Assembly (NCBI GenBank): GCA_946894095.1
Contig: OX335664.1
Coordinates: forward strand, 11,396,001 to 11,460,000
Origin: Incurvaria masculella
Taxonomy: Eukaryota > Arthropoda > Insecta > Lepidoptera > Incurvariidae
Reading direction: 5' to 3'
DNA: 64,000 bases
The position numbers and the translations under genes were made by a program. Positions 9,782 through 63,866 of the stretch are shown in pieces. Position 1 is the first letter of the stretch; each line of letters starts with the position of its first letter. Below the pieces are notes generated by a model. The model searched no databases and was not told the DNA's origin. It was given only the letters and a program-made list of their open reading frames with translations.

Positions 9782-10158
9782 TTATAAACATTTTTCTCTC
9801 CAAAATTTTTTCAAAAATCTTATACAGTGATGCCCACAATTGAAATCGTAAAACGACTGATATCGTTTGTAGTTATACAATATGTTATCACAGTTAAGGT
9901 AATTAATTAATTCTTTTGGAGGTTTTAGATCTCCAAAACTATCAAAATATTCACAGTGATCGTTTAATTTAGCGTAAGCTACCCAGTGAGTCCCTGAATT
10001 TGTATTGCTATCTAAATTCAAAATACCACATTCAATTATGTGAGCTTTAGAAGGAAGAGTATCCCTCATATACACACCCCTAAAGAATGGAATATTTGCG
10101 GAGTGTTTGGCTATATCTATATTCGTAAGGGCTCGCTGAGGTAGTCGCTTTTCTAGTT
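9782..10158 (-). CDS. Polinton adenain-like cysteine protease
   Basis: A capsid-maturation protease of the adenovirus type. The catalytic residues are visible: His in SGTHWVAY, an acidic residue in EYFDSFG and the nucleophile in FNCGHHCIRF. The frame is open from about 10158, but its first ATG (10075) comes after conserved-looking sequence such as LPQRALTNID, so the ATG-started 97-residue form would lack the N-terminus. Upstream the frame overlaps the end of the PLA2-like gene in the -1 register. There, the heptamer A AAA AAC followed at once by TAG could move ribosomes into the protease frame. A one-base homopolymer loss in a formerly fused gene is the simpler alternative. Confidence 0.85.
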
Positions 10159-10890
10159 TTTTTTTAAATTCAAATAACTACCACGACTAACATCTTTGTA
10201 TGGCTTAAGATGAAGGCCTTTTCCTAATGCTATTGCTTCCATGGTCCTATTATGACGTTCTGATTCTTGTAAACTTTTTTGTCCTGCTTTATAATCATTA
10301 ACAGCTTTAGCTATACCAGCTGCACCACCTGCTAGACCGCCCAAAGCCGATAGCCCGGCAAAAATCGGTATTAATGGTAGTATTCCACCTGTTTTAGGTA
10401 GCGGTATTCTTCTTGGAAGCTTAGTATTAGGTGAAAAAAGTTTTTTGGCAGCAACGTAAGCAAACTTTATGGCACTGTTATCATTTTTTGGTTTATGCTT
10501 TTTCAAAGCAGAACGAATTTTAGAAATAAACTTTTTAAAATCAATAGATTTTGTTTTTACGCCTGCTCCTGCTTTAATTTTTGATTTCATAACCCTATTA
10601 ACAAGCCATGACGCAATTTTCTCCCCTGGTCCTGCATCTTTAGATCTAATTCTTTGCCTAGCCATATTCATAAGTTTCGAATCTGCTATATGCCTATTCT
10701 TAAGATCACTATTATTTGAGTATGCTATATCGTGTTCTTTGCAATAATTATCCAATAAATTAATGCCTTTGTCACCGCGTAACAATCTTTTTTCTAACTT
10801 AGTTCCAGGACCGCAATAATTATACCCAGGAATATGAAGTTCGAATGGTAATTTATTTATTACTTTATTCAAAAGACCCTTTCCTTTCAT
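10153..10890 (-). CDS. PLA2-like capsid protein
   Basis: 245 residues with a parvovirus-type phospholipase A2 domain: calcium-loop YCGPGT at 25-30 and the His-Asp catalytic pair in CKEHDIAY (53-54). A basic middle section follows, then a glycine/alanine-rich hydrophobic stretch near 170-200 and a C-terminal GKGLHLKPYK motif. In related viruses this domain helps the particle cross membranes; here the role is inferred from the domain. The ORF ends in a run of nine A followed by C and TAG, and the protease frame starts in the same run. Confidence 0.85.
   Translation of the reverse strand: MKGKGLLNKVINKLPFELHIPGYNYCGPGTKLEKRLLRGDKGINLLDNYCKEHDIAYSNNSDLKNRHIADSKLMNMARQRIRSKDAGPGEKIASWLVNRVMKSKIKAGAGVKTKSIDFKKFISKIRSALKKHKPKNDNSAIKFAYVAAKKLFSPNTKLPRRIPLPKTGGILPLIPIFAGLSALGGLAGGAAGIAKAVNDYKAGQKSLQESERHNRTMEAIALGKGLHLKPYKDVSRGSYLNLKKN
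10156..10162 (-). other. Candidate -1 frameshift heptamer A AAA AAC before TAG
   Basis: In the PLA2 frame the codons read AAA AAA AAC TAG, so the canonical slippery pattern X XXY YYZ is in phase. A one-base slip opens the protease frame, which has no upstream ATG of its own. I cannot identify a convincing downstream pseudoknot by eye. Confidence 0.4.
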
Positions 10891-10956
10891 TGTTTTGGTT
10901 GAAATGATTGAGATTCTTCTAAAACTATATTTATATAATAATATCTACTGTAAATG

Positions 10957-21807: not shown

Positions 21808-22497
21808 TTATGTATCAGGAATAACAAATGTATCAAACTTTTTTCGATACATACCATTGTTACGAGAGCATTCTTTATTGATTACTAAGAAGTTAAATGG
21901 TTCCAACCAAATTTTAGCACACATTTCTTTAAACACACTCCAAGACATATCAGAGCTAACATGCTCGTTATATGCATGCTTTAAATTTATATCATCTTGT
22001 TTAAAAAGTATTATTAAATTTGCATTATCAAGAATTAACTGTTTAGGTATTTTTGAATACGTTTGATTCAAATAAAAACAATCAATTTGTCTATGCCTGC
22101 CCATTGCAAAATAATTTCTAATGTTATCTTGTTTTTCACATGCCACATCATCAAATATTATTATCGAGTTAGGAAAAGATTGAATGGGATCTAATACTGC
22201 TTCATTGGTTTCAAACTCGTAGAAACTTATCTCTGGTACGTTATTTAATACTCTCTCTAAGAATATATACTTGGGCTGAAAACTTGTTTTAGAGTATAGA
22301 TAAACGTTTGAATATTTTAATCCATTTTCATGAATAAGTAATCCTACAATTAGGTTAGTTTTCCCACAGTTTGATGGTCCACATACGATACATCTGATTG
22401 TATTAGGCAGCAAACTCCCATGTCTATTAATATTGCTTTCTGCCTCACAGCGAATATTTTCTAAACTAAGTGTGTGAGACTGCTTAACAAACTTCAT
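21808..22497 (-). CDS. Polinton packaging ATPase (FtsK/HerA, A32-like)
   Basis: 229 residues, intact. Walker A is GPSNCGKT (40-47), Walker B is IIIFDDV (112-118), followed by an arginine-finger-like region (GRHRQIDCFYLNQTYSK). The length is usual for Polinton and polintovirus packaging ATPases, which pump DNA into the capsid. A short RTE retrotransposon fragment lies directly upstream of the ATG, so the original leader and promoter of this gene may have been changed. Confidence 0.9.
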   Translation of the reverse strand: MKFVKQSHTLSLENIRCEAESNINRHGSLLPNTIRCIVCGPSNCGKTNLIVGLLIHENGLKYSNVYLYSKTSFQPKYIFLERVLNNVPEISFYEFETNEAVLDPIQSFPNSIIIFDDVACEKQDNIRNYFAMGRHRQIDCFYLNQTYSKIPKQLILDNANLIILFKQDDINLKHAYNEHVSSDMSWSVFKEMCAKIWLEPFNFLVINKECSRNNGMYRKKFDTFVIPDT

Positions 22498-22670
22498 TGC
22501 TGGATGGATGAATCGGGGATGTATGTTGCTCTTTAAAAAAAACCACCGAATGGATGTTGATGAATCTTCATAGTAATATAGGCTATTATTTATAACGATG
22601 ACTATAGAAAAATATTAGCCAAAGATATACGACATTGACCTGAGCGGAGCCGGGTACATCAGCTAGTAAT
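22498..22670. repeat. 3' fragment of an RTE-like non-LTR retrotransposon
   Basis: The segment ends GAGCGGAGCCGGGTACATC, then AGCTAGT and an A/T-rich tail at about 22,660-22,675. I recognise this as the typical 3' terminus of lepidopteran RTE-type elements. It is 5' truncated, as usual. It begins within a few bases of the ATPase start codon. Confidence 0.5.
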
Positions 22671-31706: not shown

Positions 31707-32281
31707 AACCGACTTCAAAAAAAGGAGGAGGTTATCAATTCATCTGTATGTTTTTTTTGTTTTTTTGTTTTTTTTGTTTTTTTTTAAATGTTTGTTACCT
31801 CATAACTTTTGCCTGGGTGAACCGATTTTGATAATTATTTTTTTAAATGATAGCTAGTGCTTCCCAAGTGGTCCCATTTTAATTTGGTTAAGTTCTGACA
31901 ATGATATCCATGAGAAAATCATAAAAGTCTTAAATTTGTATTAACATTGCGCGACAAATGGACAAATAACTCAATATAACGCCAACCGATTTCGATAATT
32001 CTTTTTTTATTGGAAAGGACGTGTACAAATTAGTAAAATTACTTCAGATTCACTAAAAATAAACAAATAAAAATACAAATTTAACAAAAAAAATAACCGA
32101 CTTCAAAGGAAAAGCACTAAAAAGTAAAAAATAATTTTCATTTTTGTAGTTACGATTTCTGTAATTTTTTGAGTCGGTGTCAGCCAAGGTTAGGTTAGGT
32201 TAGGTTAGGTTCGGTCAGGTTAGTCAGTTAAAAAATGAAAATTATTTTTTACTTTTTAGTGCTTTTTCTTGAAGTCGGTTA
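31707..32281 (+). repeat. CCGACTTC-family dispersed repeat, copy 1
   Basis: Begins ACCGACTTCAAAAAAAGG, runs through CATAACTTTTGCCTGGGTGA and ends in an inverted copy of its terminal CCGACTTC block. It holds a short TTAGG run (about 32187-32212) between partly paired arms at 32094-32186 and 32230-32281. The right arm is shorter than in the copy at 47156. Confidence 0.8.
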
Positions 32282-47155: not shown

Positions 47156-47815
47156 AACCGACTTCAAAAAAAGAAGGAGGTTATCAAGTCGTCTGGATGT
47201 TTTTTTTGTTTTGTTTTTTTTGTTTTTTTTTTTATGTTTGTTACCTCATAACTTTTGCCTGGGTGAACCGATTTTGATGATTATTTTTTTAAATGATAGC
47301 TAGTGCTTTCCAAGTGGTCCCATTTTAATTTGGTTAAGTTCTGACAATAATACCCATGAGAAAATCATAAAAGTCTTAAATTTGTATTAAGATGTGCGCG
47401 ACAAATGGACGAATAACTCAATATAACGCCAACCGATTTCGGTGATTGTTTTTTTATTGGAAAGGACGTCTACAAATTAGTAAGTGTACTTCAGATTCAC
47501 TAAAAATAAACAAATAAAAAAACAAATTTAACAAAAAAAATAACCGACTTCAAAGGAAAAGCACTAAAAAGTAAAAAATAATTTCCATTTTTGTAGTTAC
47601 GATTTCTGTTATTTTTTGAGTCGGTGTCAGCCAAGGTTAGGTTAGGTTAGGTTAGGTTAGGTTAGATTAGGTTAGTTTCTCTTGATTGGCGCAGCGCGTG
47701 CCTGGCTGACGCCGACTCAAAAAATAACAGAAATCGTAACTACAAAAATGGAAATTATTTTTTACTTTTTAGTGCTTTTCCTTTGAAGTCGGTTATTTTT
47801 TTTGTTAAATTTGTT
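47156..47815 (+). repeat. CCGACTTC-family dispersed repeat, complete copy
   Basis: The best preserved copy. The 3' part is a long hairpin: 92-bp arms at 47541-47632 and 47704-47795, nearly identical, with a 71-base loop holding six to seven TTAGG units and GATTGGCGCAGCGCG. Confidence 0.85.
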
Positions 47816-53610: not shown

Positions 53611-53927
53611 TTTTAATTTTATTGGAAAGGACGTGTACAAATTAGTAAGTGTACTTCAGATTCACTAAAAATAAACAAATAAAAAAAAATAAAAAAAAAA
53701 AATAACCGACTTCAAAGAAAAAGCACTAAAAAGTAAAAAATAATTTCCATTTTTGTAGTTACGATTTCTGTTATTTTTTTGAGTTGGTGTCAGCCAAGGT
53801 TAGGTTAGGTTAGGTTAGGTTAGTTTCTCTTGATTGGCGCAGCGCGTGCCCGGCTGACGCCGACTCAAAAAATAACAGAAATCGTAACTACAAAAATGGA
53901 AATTATTTTTTACTTTTTAGTGCTTTT
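53611..53927 (+). repeat. CCGACTTC-family repeat, 3' part with TTAGG loop
   Basis: Left arm 53703-53795, four to five TTAGG units, right arm from 53852 that is cut at 53927 by the next GACG-family fragment. Confidence 0.8.
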
Positions 53928-53928
53928 T

Positions 53929-54001
53929 TAGGGTTCCGTACCCAAAGGGTAAAAACGGAACCCTATTACTAAGCCTCCGCTGTCCGTCCGTCCGTCCGTC
54001 C
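53929..54001 (-). repeat. GACG-family fragment
   Basis: Hairpin end and four GTCC units only. Confidence 0.8.
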
Positions 54002-54035: not shown

Positions 54036-55410
54036 CCTGTATTCAGCTAGTAGAGTGAGCCGCCCATATTCGAAATGCCTACGCGAACGGAGACTCATTT
54101 AATTTTTTTCGCGAGGGAAGGTAATTTCTTCCGGGCAATTATATTGATGGAACACACTCTGTTTTGCGTTAAAATATATTTCTGTAGCGACCTCGTTGAA
54201 ACGGTATCCATCTGGTAGAGTGAAACGCCCGTATTCGAAAGGCCTACGCGAACGGAGACTCATTTTATTTTTTTCGCGAGGGAAGGTAATTTCTTTCGGG
54301 CAATTACATTGATGGAACACACTCTGTTTTGCGTTAAAATATATTTTTGTAGCGACCTCGTTGAAACGGTATCCATCTAGTAGAGTGAGCCGCTCGTATT
54401 CGAAAGACCTACGCGAACGGAGACTCATTTTATTTTTTTCGCAAGGGAAGGTAATTTCTTCCGGGCAATTATATTGATGGAACACACTCTGTTTTGCGTT
54501 AAATTACATTTCTTTAGCGACCTCGTTGAAACGGTATCCATCTGGTAGAGTGAAACGCCCGTATTCGAAAGGCCTACGCGAACGGAGACTCATTTTATTT
54601 TTTTCGCGAGGGAAGGTAATTTCTTCCGGGCAATTATATTGATGGAACACACTCTGTTTTGCGTTAAATTACATTTCTTTAGCGACCTCGTTGAAACGGT
54701 ATCCATCTGGTAGAGTGAAACGCCCGTATTCGAAAGGCCTACGCGAACGGAGACTCATTTTATTTTTTTCGCGAGGGAAGGTAATTTCTTCCGGGCAATT
54801 ATATTGATGGAACACACTCTGTTTTGCGTTAAATTACATTAATTTAGCGACCTCGTTGAAACGGTATCCATCTGGTAGAGTGAAACGCCCGTATTCGAAA
54901 GGCCTACGCGAACGGAGACTCATTTTATTTTTTTCGCGAGGGAAGGTAATTTCTTTCGGGCAATTACATTGATGGAACACACTCTGTTTTGCGTTAAAAT
55001 ATATTTCTGCAGCGACCTCGTTGAAACGGTATCCATCTGGTAGAGTGAGTCGCCCGTATTCGAAAGGCCTACGCGAACGGAGACTCATTTTATTTTTTTC
55101 GCGAGGGAAGGTAATTTCTTTCGGGCAATTACATTGATGGAACACACTCTGTTTTGCGTTAAAATATATTTCTGCAGCGACCTCGTTGAAACGGTATCCA
55201 TCTGGTAGAGTGAGCCGCTCGTATTCGAAAGGCCTACGCGAACGGAGACTCATTTTATTTTTTTCGCGAGGGAAGGTAATTTCTTCCGGGCAATTATATT
55301 GATGGAACACACTCTGTTTTGCGTTAAATTACATTTCTTTAGCGACCTCGTTGAAACGGTATCCATCTGGTAGAGTGAAACGCCCGTATTCGAAAGGCCT
55401 ACGCGAACCG
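54036..55410. repeat. 165-bp tandem repeats, about 8.3 units, rDNA spacer
   Basis: The word ACGCGAACGG recurs at 54081, 54246, 54411, 54576, 54741, 54906, 55071 and 55236, exactly 165 bp apart, with a variant at 55401. Units differ at few positions. Two variants alternate (ATATATTT and ATTACATT after GCGTTAAA). 165 is a multiple of three, so long open frames of the MFHQYNCPEE type appear on the minus strand; I regard these as a by-product. Confidence 0.92.
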
Positions 55411-55592
55411 AGAGATCGATGTGGTCGGTTGAACACGTGCATCATGGCTCTGAAGGTCTGAAATTACCTCAGTTCGATGTCGGGGCTCGGAATCGTCTGT
55501 AGACGACTTCCGTTCCTGGCGGGGTGTTGTGCTCGGTAGAGCAGCGTCGTGTTGCGATCTGTTGAGACTCAGCCCTACGCCAGGTGATTCGT
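55411..55592 (+). rRNA. Probable 3' end of a 28S rRNA gene (fragment)
   Basis: The terminal part, from GTGCTCGGTAGAGCAGCG through GATCTGTTGAGACTCAGCCC to GTGATTCGTCC, looks like the last bases of insect 28S rRNA. The upstream boundary is where the 165-bp repeats end (about 55410). Orientation agrees with the downstream 18S. Recognition is from memory and only moderately firm; it could instead be transcribed spacer. Confidence 0.42.
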
Positions 55593-56378
55593 CCGAGGAC
55601 GATGCTATCTATGTACGCGTGCGCTCTTATGAGCTCGCGCAGCGCGGCAACCTATATGACTAACGCATCATTTGAACTTGCGTGTCGGTTTAGGTTGTTG
55701 CGTTTATATTTTTGCGATCCGAAGCGACGCGAACGAACACGCGCCTGTTGTTGCCGTCGAAGCTGTCGACGGCACGGCACGGCACGGCACGGCGCGGTGT
55801 GCCGTTTTATTTTGAAGACGGGAGACCCACGCGAACGAACGATTCCATACGCGTGCGATCCTGCGTGGAATGAATTGTATTAAGACGGGAGACCCACGCG
55901 AACGAACGAGTCCGAGTTCAATCTTCCGCTTGGTAGAAATAATGCTAATGGTAAACGTAGACCTTTGTTCAGGATTTATTTAGGAATTGCAACGCACAAA
56001 ATTTATTTATTTGACCCTTTTCCGAATAGTTTAGTAGATATTGAAAGACTTCATAGGCAAAATAAAACATGTAGCAAATAGAAGAATTTCGTTACTATTT
56101 GATGCAAGCTAATTTTAAGAGACACTATAAATATGTAACGTGCAATATATAACATTTTTGAGATGCGTTTTATGTACTATACTACATTTATTTTATATAT
56201 TTTTTTTTCATTCTGTTACAAAATAATGAATATGGCTACATGTTCTACTTTAATTTTTCTAGGTAGGTAATAAAAATGCCGTATGCATTTAAACACGTGT
56301 ACTTTGTGGCAAAATATTGTTCCTGTATGTTGATATCTTTATTGTTAAATTGTCTGTAATATGTTATGTTGTATGCAT
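55593..56378 (+). other. Intergenic spacer, unique part
   Basis: GC-rich first, with a (CGGCA)n-like run at 55780-55797 and twice the word GGGAGACCCACGCGAACGAA (about 55820 and 55887), then A/T rich from 55940. No gene. Likely 3' ETS and spacer. Confidence 0.55.
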
Positions 56379-56433
56379 GTTTCGCTGGATAGTAGATAGG
56401 GACAGTGGGAATCTCGTTAATCCATTCATGCGC
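56379..56433 (-). rRNA. Antisense 28S fragment 1 (spans R1 target region)
   Basis: On the minus strand it reads GCGCATGAATGGATTAACGA, then GATTCCCACTGTCCC, then TATCTACTATCCAGCGAAAC. This is the conserved 28S stretch around the R1 insertion site with one change, opposite in direction to the downstream 18S. Confidence 0.85.
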
Positions 56434-57937
56434 TTAGGTTAGGTTAGGTTACGTTACGTTACGTTACGTTACGTGACGTTACGTTAGGTTAGGTTAGGCG
56501 CCCAATCCCTGATCGTTTTATTAGTAACTCATCGATGAATTGAATTTTAACGCATTGATTGAGGAGGATATTAATTTTCTTACAGTTCGATTTCTTCCAT
56601 TTCGTGCATTTCAATCGAATAATCGTTTTCGCTGAACATATTTTCTAAGCGTCAGTTTCGGTGCGGTGGTCTATAAAAAAAATAACCAAGGTTTATTCAT
56701 AGAAGATGCGTTCGCTTCGCTCCGCATCTTCTATGAATAAACCTTAACCTAACCGGTCCATGTCGGTGCCCGCAGGTCGGCTTCGCGACAAATGTGATTT
56801 TTAGATTTAGATTTTATTTATAAAGTGATTTTTCACCGTCGCTCGCGAACGATCTCCCACTTAACAGTGCCATTACTGGAGTCTTCTTTCCCCGTAGATA
56901 GGGACAGTGGGAATCTCGTTAATCCATTCATGCGCATACGTTAGGTTGGGTTAGGTTAGGCTTGGTTAGGTGAGATTCGTTTCCGCACCCTAATCTAACC
57001 GGTCCAAGCCCGTACCCAAATGGCTGTGTGCGTCTCGCTGGGGGACAGTGGGAATCTCGTTAATCCATTCATGCGCACAGGTTATGTTAGGTTAGGTCAG
57101 GTTTGGTTGGGTTAGGTTAGGTTAGGTTAGGTTAGGTTAGGTTAGGTTAGGTTAGGTTAGGTTAGGTTAGGTCAGGTTAGGTTGGGTCAGGTTGGGTTGG
57201 GTTAGGTTGGGTTAGGTTAGGTTAGGTTAGGTTAGGTTAGGTTAGGTTAGGTTAGGTTAGGTTAGGTTAGGTTAGGTTAGGTTAGGTTAGGTTCGGTTCG
57301 GTTCGGTTCGGTTAGATTAGGTGAGGTTAGGTTAGGTTAGATTGCGTTGGGTTGGGTTGGGTTGGGTTAGGTTAGGTTTTGTCGGTTTCGCGACAAATGT
57401 GATTTTTTTAGATTTAGATTTTATTTGTGAAGTGATTTTTCACCGTCGCTCGCGAACGATCTCCCACTTAACAGTGCCATTACTGGAGTCAAACTAAACG
57501 GGGTCTTCTTTCCCCGTGGATAGGGACAGTGGGAATCTCGTTAATCCAATCATGCGCACACTTTAGGTTGGGTTAGGTGAGATTCGTTTCCGCACCCTAA
57601 TCTAACCGGTCCAAGCCCGTACCCAAATGGCTGTGTGCGTCTCGCTGGGGGACAGTGGGAATCTCGTTAATCCATTCATGCGCACAGGTTATGTTATGTT
57701 ATGTTAGGCTAGGTTGGGTTAGGTTAGGTTAGGTTAGGTTAGGTTAGGTTAGGTTCGGTTAGGTTAGGTTAGGTTAGGTTAGGTTAGGTTGGGTTAGGTT
57801 TGGTTAGGTTGGGTTAGGTTAGATTGGTTTGGGTTCGGTTGGGTTGGGTCGGGTTGGGTTGGGTTAGGTTAGGTTAAGTTAGGTTAGGTTAGGTTGGGTT
57901 AGGTTGGGTTGGGTAAGGTTGGCTTGGGTTTTCTTCC

Positions 57938-59469
57938 ATTTCGTGCATTTCAAGGGAATAACTTTTTTCGCTGTACATATTTTCTAAGCGTCAGTTTCGG
58001 TGCCGTGGTCTATAAAAAAAATAACCAAGGTTTATTCATAGAAGATGCGTTCGCTTCTTTTTTGGATTTCGATTTTATTTGTAAAGTGTTTTTTCACCGT
58101 CGCTCTGGAACGATCTCCCACTTACAGTGCCATTAATAGAGTCAAACTAAACGGGGTCTTCTTTCCCCGTAGATAGGGACAGTGGGAATCTCGTTAATCC
58201 ATTCATGCGCATACGTTAGGTTGGGTTAGGTTAGGCTGGGTTAGGTGAGATTCGTTTCCGCACCCTAATCCACGGATACAGATACAGATACAGATACAGA
58301 TATTTATTTCGCCATAAAGAACACGTCCCGTACTAAAGCCCGTACCCAAATCGCTGTGTGCGTCTCGCCGGGGGACAGTGGGAATCTCGTTAATCCATTC
58401 ATGCGCACAGGTTATGTTAGGTTTGGTTTGGTTAGGTTAGGTTAGGTTAGGTTAGGTTAGGTTAGGTTAGGTTAGGCTAGGCTAGGTTAGGTTAGGTTAG
58501 GTTAGGTTGGGTCAGGTTGGGTCAGGTTAGGTTAGGTTAGGTTAGGTTAGGTTAGGTTAGGTTAGGTTAGGTTAGGTTAGGTTAGGTTAGGTTAGGTTAG
58601 GTTAGGTTAGGTTAGGTTAGGTTAGGTTAGGTAGGGTTGGGTTGGGTTTGGTTTTCTTCCATTTCGTGCATTTCAATGGAATAATTTTTTTCGCTGTACA
58701 TATTTTCTAAGCGTCAGTTTCGGTGCCGTGGTCTATAAAAAAAATAAACCTTAACCTAACCGGTCCGCGTCGGTGCCCGCAGGTCGGTTTTGCGACAAAT
58801 GTGATTTTTTGGATTTCGATTTTATTTGTAAAGTGTTTTTTCACCGTCGCTCGCGAACGATCTCCCACTTACAGTGCCATTACTGGAGTCATACTAAACG
58901 GGGTCTTCTTTCCCCGGAGATAGGGACAGTGGGAATCTCGTTAATCCATTCATGCGCACAGGTTATGTTAGGTTAGGTTATGTTAGGTCAAGTCAGGTTA
59001 GGTTAGGTTAGGTTAGGTTAGGTTAGGTCAAGTCTGGTTAGGTTAGGTTAGGTTAGGTTAGGTTAGGTTAGTTTAGGTTAGGTTAGGTTAGCTTAGGTTA
59101 GGTTAGGTTAGGTTAGCTTAGGTTAGGTAAGGTTGGGTTAGGTTAGGTTGGGTTGGGTTAGGTTAGGTTAGGTTAGGTTACGTTGGGTTGGGTTAGGTTA
59201 GGTTAGGTTAGGTTAGGTTAGGTTAGGTTAGGTTAGGTTAGGTTAGGTTAGGTTAGGTTAGGTTAGGTTAGGTTAGGTTAGGCTAGGTTGGGTTGGGTTT
59301 AGGTCGCACCCATCACCACTCGTAAAAGAGGAAAGTCCTCCAGCGCCCACACAACTGTACATTTCCGACTTCGCCAGCGCACGCGCATATATATGGTGAT
59401 GGCGGTTCGAGTCGTCCGAGCAGCGAGTTAAAGATTCGAGTCGGCAGATGCGTCCTTAGTTGGATGTGT
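57938..59469 (+). repeat. 1,532-bp spacer unit, upstream copy
   Basis: Begins ATTTCGTGCATTTCAAGG and ends TTAGTTGGATGTGT. It is nearly identical to the next unit but carries 12 more TTAGG units (60 bp) in one array. Confidence 0.9.
59303..59469 (+). promoter_or_regulatory. Candidate spacer promoter for RNA polymerase I
   Basis: A 167-bp copy of the block that lies before the 5' ETS, containing CGCGCATATATATGG (about 59383-59397). Confidence 0.45.
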
Positions 59470-60941
59470 ATTTCGTGCATTTCAAGGGAATAACTTTTTT
59501 CGCTGTACATATTTTCTAAGCGTCAGTTTCGGTGCCGTGGTCTATAAAAAAAATAACCAAGGTTTATTCATAGAAGATGCGTTCGCTTCTTTTTTGGATT
59601 TCGATTTTATTTGTAAAGTGTTTTTTCACCGTCGCTCTGGAACGATCTCCCACTTACAGTGCCATTAATAGAGTCAAACTAAACGGGGTCTTCTTTCCCC
59701 GTAGATAGGGACAGTGGGAATCTCGTTAATCCATTCATGCGCATACGTTAGGTTGGGTTAGGTTAGGCTGGGTTAGGTGAGATTCGTTTCCGCACCCTAA
59801 TCCACGGATACAGATACAGATACAGATACAGATATTTATTTCGCCATAAAGAACACGTCCCGTACTAAAGCCCGTACCCAAATCGCTGTGTGCGTCTCGC
59901 CGGGGGACAGTGGGAATCTCGTTAATCCATTCATGCGCACAGGTTATGTTAGGTTTGGTTTGGTTAGGTTAGGTTAGGTTAGGTTAGGTTAGGTTAGGTT
60001 AGGTTAGGCTAGGCTAGGTTAGGTTAGGTTAGGTTAGGTTGGGTCAGGTTGGGTCAGGTTAGGTTAGGTTAGGTTAGGTTAGGTTAGGTTAGGTTAGGTT
60101 AGGTAGGGTTGGGTTGGGTTTGGTTTTCTTCCATTTCGTGCATTTCAATGGAATAATTTTTTTCGCTGTACATATTTTCTAAGCGTCAGTTTCGGTGCCG
60201 TGGTCTATAAAAAAAATAAACCTTAACCTAACCGGTCCGCGTCGGTGCCCGCAGGTCGGTTTTGCGACAAATGTGATTTTTTGGATTTCGATTTTATTTG
60301 TAAAGTGTTTTTTCACCGTCGCTCGCGAACGATCTCCCACTTACAGTGCCATTACTGGAGTCATACTAAACGGGGTCTTCTTTCCCCGGAGATAGGGACA
60401 GTGGGAATCTCGTTAATCCATTCATGCGCACAGGTTATGTTAGGTTAGGTTATGTTAGGTCAAGTCAGGTTAGGTTAGGTTAGGTTAGGTTAGGTTAGGT
60501 CAAGTCTGGTTAGGTTAGGTTAGGTTAGGTTAGGTTAGGTTAGTTTAGGTTAGGTTAGGTTAGCTTAGGTTAGGTTAGGTTAGGTTAGCTTAGGTTAGGT
60601 AAGGTTGGGTTAGGTTAGGTTGGGTTGGGTTAGGTTAGGTTAGGTTAGGTTACGTTGGGTTGGGTTAGGTTAGGTTAGGTTAGGTTAGGTTAGGTTAGGT
60701 TAGGTTAGGTTAGGTTAGGTTAGGTTAGGTTAGGTTAGGTTAGGTTAGGTTAGGCTAGGTTGGGTTGGGTTTAGGTCGCACCCATCACCACTCGTAAAAG
60801 AGGAAAGTCCTCCAGCGCCCACACAACTGTACATTTCCGACTTCGCCAGCGCACGCGCATATATATGGTGATGGCGGTTCGAGTCGTCCGAGCAGCGAGT
60901 TAAAGATTCGAGTCGGCAGATGCGTCCTTAGTTGGATGTGT
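59470..60941 (+). repeat. 1,472-bp spacer unit, gene-proximal copy
   Basis: Direct tandem copy of 57938-59469. The junction lies in GGATGTGT / ATTTCGTGC; after the second copy the sequence continues into the 5' ETS. Confidence 0.9.
60775..60941 (+). promoter_or_regulatory. Candidate rRNA gene promoter for RNA polymerase I
   Basis: The block ends about 415 bp before 18S and contains ATATATATGGTGATGG (about 60858-60873), similar in kind to insect Pol I start regions with a TATA-like core. The exact start is not provable by eye. Confidence 0.5.
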
Positions 60942-61356
60942 CGGCCGGATCGGTTCTCCGTCGCTCCGGTACGAAACGACCGACGGGCCTGCGCGCTGTC
61001 AAAGCGCACGCTACGTGTGCGAACGGTGCGTCTTCGGACGTGTCGTATGCTCGCACGAATCTTACGCATCCACTCGTGGATTGCACTCTTTGACGAGACG
61101 ACTCTCCCGATCCGGGCGTGTTGTGATTGATTGACGACAGTGTTAATCGAAATTAAATACACGAAATGTCGTGAATCGTTTTGCGAAAAATCAAACTTGG
61201 CGTCCAATGTGTGTACGCACGGTGCGCGAGTTTCGCTCGCCCTCGGGTGAGCGAGAACGCACACTAAAACGAAACAATATTCGACCGAAAGGTTCGTTGT
61301 CTGCGTCCACCCGGCGTCCGTCGCTTCGGCGACGCCGGGATGTTGTCACGGATAGC
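60942..61356 (+). other. 5' external transcribed spacer
   Basis: 415 bp of GC-rich sequence without repeats between the duplicated promoter block and 18S. ORFs on both strands have no family resemblance. Confidence 0.7.
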
Positions 61357-62555
61357 TCCCTGGTTGATCCTGCCAGTAGTTATATGCTTGTCTCAAAGAC
61401 TAAGCCATGCATGTCTCAGTGCAAGCCGTATTAAGGCGATACCGCGAATGGCTCAATATATCAGTTTTGGTTCCTTAGATCTTACTCAGTTACTTGGATA
61501 ACTGTGGCAATTCTAGAGCTAATACATGCAATCAGAACTCTGACCAGTGATGGAATGAGTGCTTTTATTAGATCAAAACCAATCGGCGGCGGGCGTTCGC
61601 GTCCAAAGTCGTTCTTTTTGATGAATCTGGATAACTTTTGCCGATCGCACGGTCCCGTACCGGCGACGCATCTTTCAAATGTCTGCCTTATCAACTTTCG
61701 ATGGTAGTTTCTGCGACTACCATGGTTGTCACGGGTAACGGGGAATCAGGGTTCGATTCCGGAGAGGGAGCCTGAGAAACGGCTACCACATCCAAGGAAG
61801 GCAGCAGGCGCGCAAATTACCCACTCCCGGCACGGGGAGGTAGTGACGAAAAATAACGATACGGGACTCTTACGAGGCCTCGTAATCGGAATGAGTACAC
61901 TTTAAATATTTTAACGAGGAACAATTGGAGGGCAAGTCTGGTGCCAGCAGCCGCGGTAATTCCAGCTCCAATAGCGTATACTAAAATTGTTGCGGTTAAA
62001 AAGCTCGTAGTTGCATTTGTGCGCCGCGCTGTCGGTGCACCGCATCTGCGGTGATACTGACACGTTTGCGGAGCATATCGTCGGTGAATCTCCGGTAAAA
62101 CGGAGGTTCAATATCAAAAATCCTATCGCGGTGCTCTTCAGTGAGTGTCGAGATGGGCCGACAATTTTACTTTGAACAAATTAGAGTGCTTAAAGCGGGC
62201 TCAAAATGCTGCTTGAATATTTAGTGCATGGAATAATAGAATATGATCTCGGTTCTATTTTGTTGGTTTTCAGAACTCCGAGGTAATGATTAATAGGGAT
62301 AACTGGGGGCATTCGTATTGCGACGTTAGAGGTGAAATTCTTGGATCGTCGCAAGACGAACATCAGCGAAAGCATTTGCCAAAGGTGTTTTCATCAATCA
62401 AGAACGAAAGTTAGAGGTTCGAAGGCGATTAGATACCGCCCTAGTTCTAACCGTAAATATGTCATCTAGCGATCCGCCGACGTTACTACAATGGCTCGGC
62501 GGGCAGCTTCCGGGAAACCAAAGATTTTGGACTCCGGGGGGAGTATGGTTGCAAA

Positions 62556-62604
<49 letters not shown>

Positions 62605-63073
62605 GCGGCTTAATTTGACTCAACACGGGAAATCTCACCAGGCCCGGACACCGGAAGGATTGACAGATTAATAGCTCTTTCTTGATTCGGTGGGTGGTGG
62701 TGCATGGCCGTTCTTAGTTGGTGGAGCGATTTGTCTGGTTAATTCCGGTAACGAACGAGACTCTAGCCTGCTAAATAGGCGTCGCCATTTAGGTGCGCGT
62801 GGCCTCGGTCACGCAACTGACTGGCGACGTATTAAAATTCTTCTTAGAGGGACCGGCGGCTTCGAGCCGCACGAGATTGAGCAATAACAGGTCTGTGATG
62901 CCCTTAGATGTCCTGGGCCGCACGCGCGCTACACTGAAGGAATCAGCATGTTCTCCCTGGCCTAGAGGTCCGGGCAACCCGCTGAAACTCCTTCGTGCTG
63001 GGGATTGGGGTTTGCAATTATCCCCCATAAACGAGGAATTCCTAGTAAGCGCGAGTCATAAGCTCGCGTTGAT

Positions 63074-63119
<46 letters not shown>

Positions 63120-63203
63120 AATGATTTAGTGAGGTCTTCGGACCGACACGCGGTGGCTTCGCGGCCGTCGGCGTTGTTGGGAAGTTGACCAAACTTGATC
63201 ATT

Positions 63204-63239
<36 letters not shown>

Positions 63240-63261
63240 GGAACCTGCGGAAGGATCATTA
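61357..63261 (+). rRNA. 18S ribosomal RNA, complete
   Basis: Starts at the TCCCTGGTTGATCCTGCCAG equivalent (usual TACCTGG) and ends GGAACCTGCGG AAGGATCATTA. Universal sites are present: GTGCCAGCAGCCGCGGTAA (about 61940), AAACTTAAAGGAATTGACGG (about 62562) and GTACACACCGCCCGTCGC (about 63090). The length of 1,905 nt fits a lepidopteran 18S, with variable regions richer in GC than in flies. No insertion or break is visible. Confidence 0.97.
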
Positions 63262-63705: not shown

Positions 63706-63866
63706 TACCCTGAACGGTGGATCACTTGGCTCGCGGGTCGATGAAGAACGCAGTTAACTGCGCGTCATAGTGTGAACTGCAGGACACATTTGAACATCGA
63801 CATTTCGAACGCACATTGCGGTCCGTGGAGATATATCCAGGACCACTCCTGTCTGAGGGCCGGCTG
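63706..63866 (+). rRNA. 5.8S ribosomal RNA
   Basis: Contains CTGAACGGTGGATCACTTGG, GATGAAGAACGCAG, GTGTGAACTGCAGGACACAT and GAACATCGACATTTCGAACG. About 160 nt, continuous without the 2S spacer found in flies. The 3' end is estimated. Confidence 0.95.

Follow-up and report, generated by a model that had tools for sequence, protein, structure and literature searches.

In the hepialid moth P. californicus, a TTAGG/TTATG microsatellite is part of the rDNA spacer (PMC10257491), and the intergenic spacer (IGS) of Drosophila ananassae carries a 22-bp piece of 28S from the R1 site (PMC2718515), as described in the excerpts of these two reports available to us. rDNA adjoining telomeres is described, likewise in excerpt, for Giardia (the title of a work cited by PMC6410037) and Arabidopsis (PMC9498494). 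The locus presented here lies in a window of 64,000 nucleotides (C24:11396001-11460000; the whole stretch of DNA analysed) from a genome assembled into 31 contigs (552 Mb). TTAGG telomeres, the style of the repeats and this contig number make a moth or butterfly the probable host. The explanation that we consider probable is that its spacer modules are IGS subrepeats descended from one ancestral 28S-TTAGG junction, which would have been amplified, have lost sequence at the R1 site and have had a common core maintained by conversion.

The modules (56379-60776) lie upstream of the 18S gene and outside the rRNA genes, with 18S downstream on the same strand and 5.8S at 63706-63862 (+ strand, Rfam scan of the window), which is the position of an IGS; they are repeated within the spacer with varying length, as is typical of IGS subrepeats. 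From about position 54000 rightward, the order is a 165-bp repeat array, an AT-rich stretch and then the modules. The 165-bp repeat was considered as the source of the modules and rejected, the one unit compared being without match to them. The 18S gene is found three times on C24, where the array reaches the last base of the contig, and C12 has two copies close to its start, in the opposite orientation; on both contigs it is transcribed toward the contig end. The assembly stops inside the C24 array, so the majority of rDNA units may be absent from view, and parts of the neighbouring units read N. A 156-base 18S fragment (97% identical) also lies outside the arrays, at C16:13764311-13764466 (L010), and the exact 35-nt 28S core described below is absent from the 20 kb fetched around it. 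The left flank, up to about 54000, is rich in transposon ORFs. By Pfam, one of its ORFs (767-1699) matches a double jelly roll domain and another (10153-10944) a phospholipase A2-like domain; a third (21808-22614) matches the poxvirus A32 protein slightly under the Pfam cut-off, and LTR-retrotransposon and mariner ORFs are interspersed among these ORFs. The region 767-22614 is perhaps an endogenous virus-like element interrupted by transposons, presumably resembling a Polinton or adintovirus. A MITE-like repeat with three copies in the flank (32188-32223, 47634-47675 and 53797-53823) has a short TTAGG run at the identical internal spot in each, which indicates that TTAGG is not restricted to telomeres in this genome.

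A first-pass annotation of the window had described at least eleven pieces of 28S, reversed relative to 18S, ending at one base and directly followed by TTAGG-type sequence. This description was borne out, including the identity as 28S on which it stands or falls: all eleven blocks give minus-strand matches to an LSU gene, each starting at base 2674 (BLAST, E values 8e-12 to 5e-21, n = 11), and all continue into TTAGG in phase 0. The reference is a eukaryotic LSU gene (L002; RF02543, 1778.7 bits) from an unrelated record, not the species' own 28S. As 18S is on the + strand and the pieces match the minus strand of 28S, they are antisense. The sequence CCATTCATGCGC occurs eleven times in the window (ten exact, one with one mismatch), always on the + strand and between 56422 and 60429, where 0.12 occurrences are expected by chance and none of 100 shuffles gave 11. 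Following GCGC, phase 0 is the best fit in 11/11 pieces, and it is kept through all variants of the first unit (TTAGG, ACAGG, ATACG and ACACT). Recognisable 28S extends from base 2674 to about 2795, the remaining LSU matches having E values of 0.58 or worse (BLAST); beyond that base the A modules apparently continue as more decayed 28S, judged by eye against the Rfam consensus. A 35-nt core is identical to 28S in ten of the eleven pieces. The constant end falls 31 nt to the downstream side of the R2 cut; in the Rfam LSU consensus, a hairpin finishes at the base immediately before it. The Rfam scan alone (55300-61300, E up to 1) gave no LSU match, probably due to the shortness of the pieces, and viral_contigs scanned with two 28S core patterns, the junction and the X segment gave no match of any kind. 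With eleven internal tracts of 33-347 bp (analyst-set boundaries) and 33-71% exact units, the arrays qualify as interstitial telomeric sequence. The features are listed in the table below.

Features of the spacer at 56379-60941, with the flanking 165-bp repeat and 18S gene (window positions; 28S bases in L002 numbering)
Feature	Positions	Strand	Evidence or remark
165-bp spacer repeat, 8.3 copies	54039..55413	+	repeat scan
Piece C: 28S 2674-2728, R1 target intact, then TTAGG	56379..56433	-	98%/55 nt, E 4.8e-21
TTAGG/TTACG array flush with piece C	56434..56498	+	of 13 units, 6 TTAGG and 6 TTACG
Strong hairpin, first X segment	56690..56743	.	z -8.1 for 56650-56760
Module A1 with 28S piece; R1-site gap and a 15-bp gap that the C12 copy lacks	56798..56935	-	BLAST, alignment
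Piece B1: 28S 2674-2751, lesion across R1 site	57004..57076	-	BLAST, alignment
TTAGG-type array, 62% exact units	57077..57378	+	unit count
Module A2 with 28S piece, 2 substitutions/42 nt	57405..57557	-	BLAST, alignment
Piece B2	57611..57683	-	BLAST
TTAGG-type array, 49% exact units	57684..57920	+	unit count
Recent tandem duplication, left copy, 1532 bp	57938..59469	+	alignment
Module A3 with 28S piece	58060..58210	-	BLAST, alignment
Piece B3, 35-nt core; 28S to its left is decayed	58372..58406	-	BLAST, alignment
TTAGG-type array, 71% exact units	58407..58653	+	unit count
Module A4 with 28S piece	58807..58957	-	BLAST, alignment
TTAGG-type array, 70% exact units	58958..59304	+	unit count
Extra copy of block bordering 18S leader; promoter-like only by position	59305..59469	+	165/165 identical to 60777-60941
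Recent tandem duplication, right copy, 1472 bp	59470..60941	+	alignment
Piece A5, copy of A3	59669..59742	-	BLAST, alignment
Piece B4, copy of B3	59904..59938	-	BLAST, alignment
TTAGG-type array, 62% exact units; twin array longer by 60 bp	59939..60125	+	unit count
Piece A6, copy of A4	60354..60429	-	BLAST, alignment
TTAGG-type array adjoining 18S leader	60430..60776	+	unit count
Block bordering 18S leader, second copy at 59305	60777..60941	+	alignment
18S rRNA gene	61357..63261	+	RF01960, 1738.7 bits

Two further details of the modules concern sequence outside the 28S pieces. The hairpin of the first X segment (56690-56743) gave a weak mir-590 match, below the gathering score, which was taken as chance; the X copy at 58743 retains only one arm of this hairpin, and the segment has no match in the window flank. 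B3 and B4 contain a GATACA-microsatellite insert (~58270-58335 and ~59802-59867), and B1 and B2 are without it.

All 42 readable pieces of five spacers on two contigs agree in their 28S base and in having TTAGG in phase 0. Three C24 spacers account for 32 of them, counting the 11 of the window, and two C12 spacers for the other 10; two of the five spacers are partly readable because of N, one on C24 showing 10 pieces and one on C12 only 2. Pieces are present in every spacer seen on the two contigs; the checks which the annotation had proposed, on the shared breakpoints and on other rDNA units (here, those in the assembly contigs), both came out in its favour. This common base and register on two contigs supports a single founding junction, which would have been amplified together with the spacer.

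The ancestral junction would have been formed by a piece of 28S in inverted orientation that begins 31 nt beyond the R2 cut, runs across the R1 target and lies flush to (TTAGG)n. It is doubtful that this fusion arose when telomere repeats were added to a broken 28S end or were captured by it. In 42/42 pieces (effectively one event) the TTAGG strand continues the 28S strand outward at its 3' end, as is expected of telomere addition, and in this respect the suggestion of telomere-linked repair in the annotation fits; the orientation of the array, however, speaks against simple terminal healing. Since 18S reads toward the contig end, healing that retained the inner side of the array would leave sense 28S before TTAGG, whereas the pieces are antisense, a comparison which assumes that past arrays were oriented as today's. 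Simple terminal healing is therefore disfavoured, and an inverted array, a surviving distal fragment, or an inserted fragment or reverse transcription would be needed or possible. The chromosomes, which we take to be holokinetic, could let such a distal fragment survive.

An origin by reverse transcription is itself unlikely. It would have a 28S rRNA fragment copied and put into a TTAGG array, for example by SART or TRAS (presumably telomere-targeting elements of the R1 clade), with a cDNA stop at an rRNA hairpin setting the constant end. The position of the break directly behind the hairpin agrees with this, although the coincidence rests on a single event. SART1 is described as targeting TTAGG in Bombyx in the part of the source consulted (PMC7265360). 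Against such an origin, an unsystematic look through the junctions revealed neither poly(A) nor a target-site duplication, and the left side of the pieces, corresponding to the 3' side of the rRNA, is not TTAGG in C or A.

The far sides of the pieces define three lineages. In lineage C (one piece in the window) 28S is unbroken through base 2728, including the R1 site; in lineage A (six pieces) it stops at 2715 and restarts at 2762, with 46 nt gone and a one-base ambiguity; and in lineage B (four pieces) CC replaces 2709-2720. The deletion starting at the R1 target, which the annotation had attributed to many pieces, is thus a property of the 6/11 in A, while B has another lesion and C none. 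It had also placed the retained region near both the R1 and R2 targets: the R1 target does lie inside the pieces, but the R2 cut is 31 nt outside, and an R2 target within the pieces was rejected. In the excerpt consulted (PMC2718515), R1 cuts the bottom strand 60 bp past the R2 site, and another 14 bp separate this position from the cut in the top strand; in L002 numbering the two correspond to 2702/2703 (bottom) and 2716/2717 (top). The A gap begins 1 nt from the top-strand cut (2 nt under the other reading of the ambiguous base), and the B lesion spans it. Assuming uniform placement, and post hoc, the probability is ~0.035 for both lesions covering the R1 cut and ~0.027 for the A gap starting within 1 nt of it. 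A role of R1 in the A and B lesions is suggested by these positions, and an R1 scar at them is plausible. Each of the two lineages would have lost a different stretch at the R1 target, most likely following an R1 endonuclease cut or the loss of an R1 insertion, and the break would then have been closed with deletion. Of the 33 window ORFs listed, the Pfam scans covered 20, all of them outside the modules, and the exact R1-site string, searched in the literature, gave no match. In three contigs recorded as belonging to a bacterial symbiont of Escarpia laminata, a tubeworm (L001, L003 and L004), the sequence that immediately precedes TAGCCAAATGCC, which is the 3' flank of the R2 site, is not 28S; one of them, L003, codes for a reverse transcriptase, and all three look like R2-type elements of the tubeworm host.

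The core, defined as the 35-nt tract common to A, B, C and the 28S gene, was compared with its surroundings in several ways, all chosen post hoc. Between C24 and C12, 0/280 core sites differ, against 24/1286 other non-array sites (p = 0.014) or 14/589 other module sites (p = 0.007). Among the A and B modules of both contigs, 1/70 columns are variable in the core and 19/154 elsewhere (p = 0.005; B alone p = 0.012, A alone p = 0.30). Relative to 28S, the A and B ancestors have 0/77 core positions changed and 6/66 substituted in the adjoining 28S (p = 0.0085), made up of three shared substitutions in A, which fall on capital positions of the Rfam consensus, and three substitutions in B, which also has two insertions; one evenly ageing fragment is too simple a description of this difference. 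No excess conservation is seen when the four A copies of C24 are taken alone and the core is set at 42 nt (3/42 against 10/109 variable, p = 1). We read the excess as modest and real. Because the core is exactly the tract which the three lineages share with the 28S gene, gene conversion would account for its cleanness without function and is the most likely cause, with selection or constraint less likely.

That the modules are functional and kept for that reason is improbable. They could give rise to + strand RNA antisense to 35-55 nt of 28S, serve as decoy targets for R1 or hold a factor-binding core, and the low variability of the core (1/70 columns, 0/280 sites between contigs), its identity to 28S over 35 nt in all but one piece and the R1 target retained in C would suit such roles, as would the occurrence of D. 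ananassae R1 elements in units with the spacer 28S R1 site (PMC2718515, in excerpt). However, gene conversion yields the identical pattern, the four C24 A copies depart from it, and A and B carry damaged R1 targets. It is a long shot that the fused 28S-telomere block became a spacer unit on at least two chromosomes whose clean core offers R1 landing sites and antisense RNA, with R1 breaks, telomere repeats and spacer growth joined in one loop.

Amplification of a single junction can be followed in the copies. Positions 57938-59469 and 59470-60941 are identical save 60 bp of array length, and by this tandem duplication three of the eleven pieces (A5, B4 and A6) are exact copies, leaving eight non-redundant ones; the 165-bp block at the border of the 18S leader was copied to 59305-59469 by the same duplication. 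The readable C12 spacer contains eight pieces in the order C A1 B1 A2 B2 A3 B3 A4, the same eight that are left once the ~1.5-kb duplication of the window is removed, and the duplication is absent from it, in keeping with the earlier proposal of one founding event amplified with the spacer. The C12 A1 is without the 15-bp gap seen in the window, and the C12 C-piece junction has eight exact TTAGG units. The three C24 units are near-identical where readable (0/6848 and 1/6711 bases differ), which suggests recent spread or a copied consensus. Under the single-junction reading, unequal exchange, slippage and tandem duplication would have produced eight pieces before the C24 and C12 arrays parted, C24 reaching eleven afterwards through the recent duplication; of these steps, we count the shared junction and register, the shared order and the one recent duplication as established. 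The core would have been kept clean in A, B and C by gene conversion, and the array would require no function of its own, being carried along with the rRNA genes. That fusions occurred repeatedly and independently at a single hotspot base of 28S, as the differing far ends of A, B and C might suggest, was rejected as very improbable, since base and register are identical in 42/42 pieces and the degenerate first units and the order on two contigs are held in common. An assembly artefact at the edge of the rDNA array has next to no probability: the C24 units are as near-identical as a copied consensus might be, but the base and register are shared across C24 and C12, C12 carries a separate diverged version in the same order without the duplication, and the modules differ mutually by substitutions and indels.

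The locus would preserve a fossil record of a join in the zone of 28S attacked by R elements, which was fused to telomere repeats, amplified, and is present on two contigs with rDNA. Should intermediates occur in related species, it could be used for testing the repair of R1/R2 damage and the recruitment of its products into spacers, and the clean core raises the question of whether gene conversion reaches from the 28S genes into the spacer or selection acts there. The statement in the first-pass annotation that no described system has this design was too strong, since the spacer of a moth is on record as containing TTAGG (PMC10257491) and that of D. ananassae as containing a 28S R1 piece (PMC2718515), although unfused in the excerpts consulted; a TTAGG array fused to a 28S R1-site piece in a spacer was not found in the literature searched, a set with subscription papers outside its scope and sources seen partly in excerpt. 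Going by the same excerpts, the P. californicus spacer resembles the present one in having the insect telomeric motif together with a variant that differs by one base (TTATG in that species, TTACG in the present locus) and an array that differs by a few units among copies; its array is ~800 bp, is called complementary to TTAGG and comes with no mention of 28S pieces in the part consulted (PMC10257491). In D. ananassae the spacer 28S piece likewise covers the R1 target, but it is 22 bp long, R1 elements occur in the units containing it, and the excerpt mentions no adjoining telomere repeats. Pokey of Daphnia is comparable in that spacer repeats and a 28S-targeting mobile element swap sequence and co-evolve, according to the portion seen (PMC3849761), with the difference that there the spacer repeats are inside a DNA transposon, while here the 28S pieces are inside the spacer. 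Giardia and Arabidopsis, as excerpted, also have rDNA and telomere repeats side by side, at chromosome ends, whereas the junction described here is internal, inverted and multiplied in the spacer. The design is therefore unusual, and its ingredients, TTAGG and a 28S R1 piece in the spacer, are already known in insect spacers.
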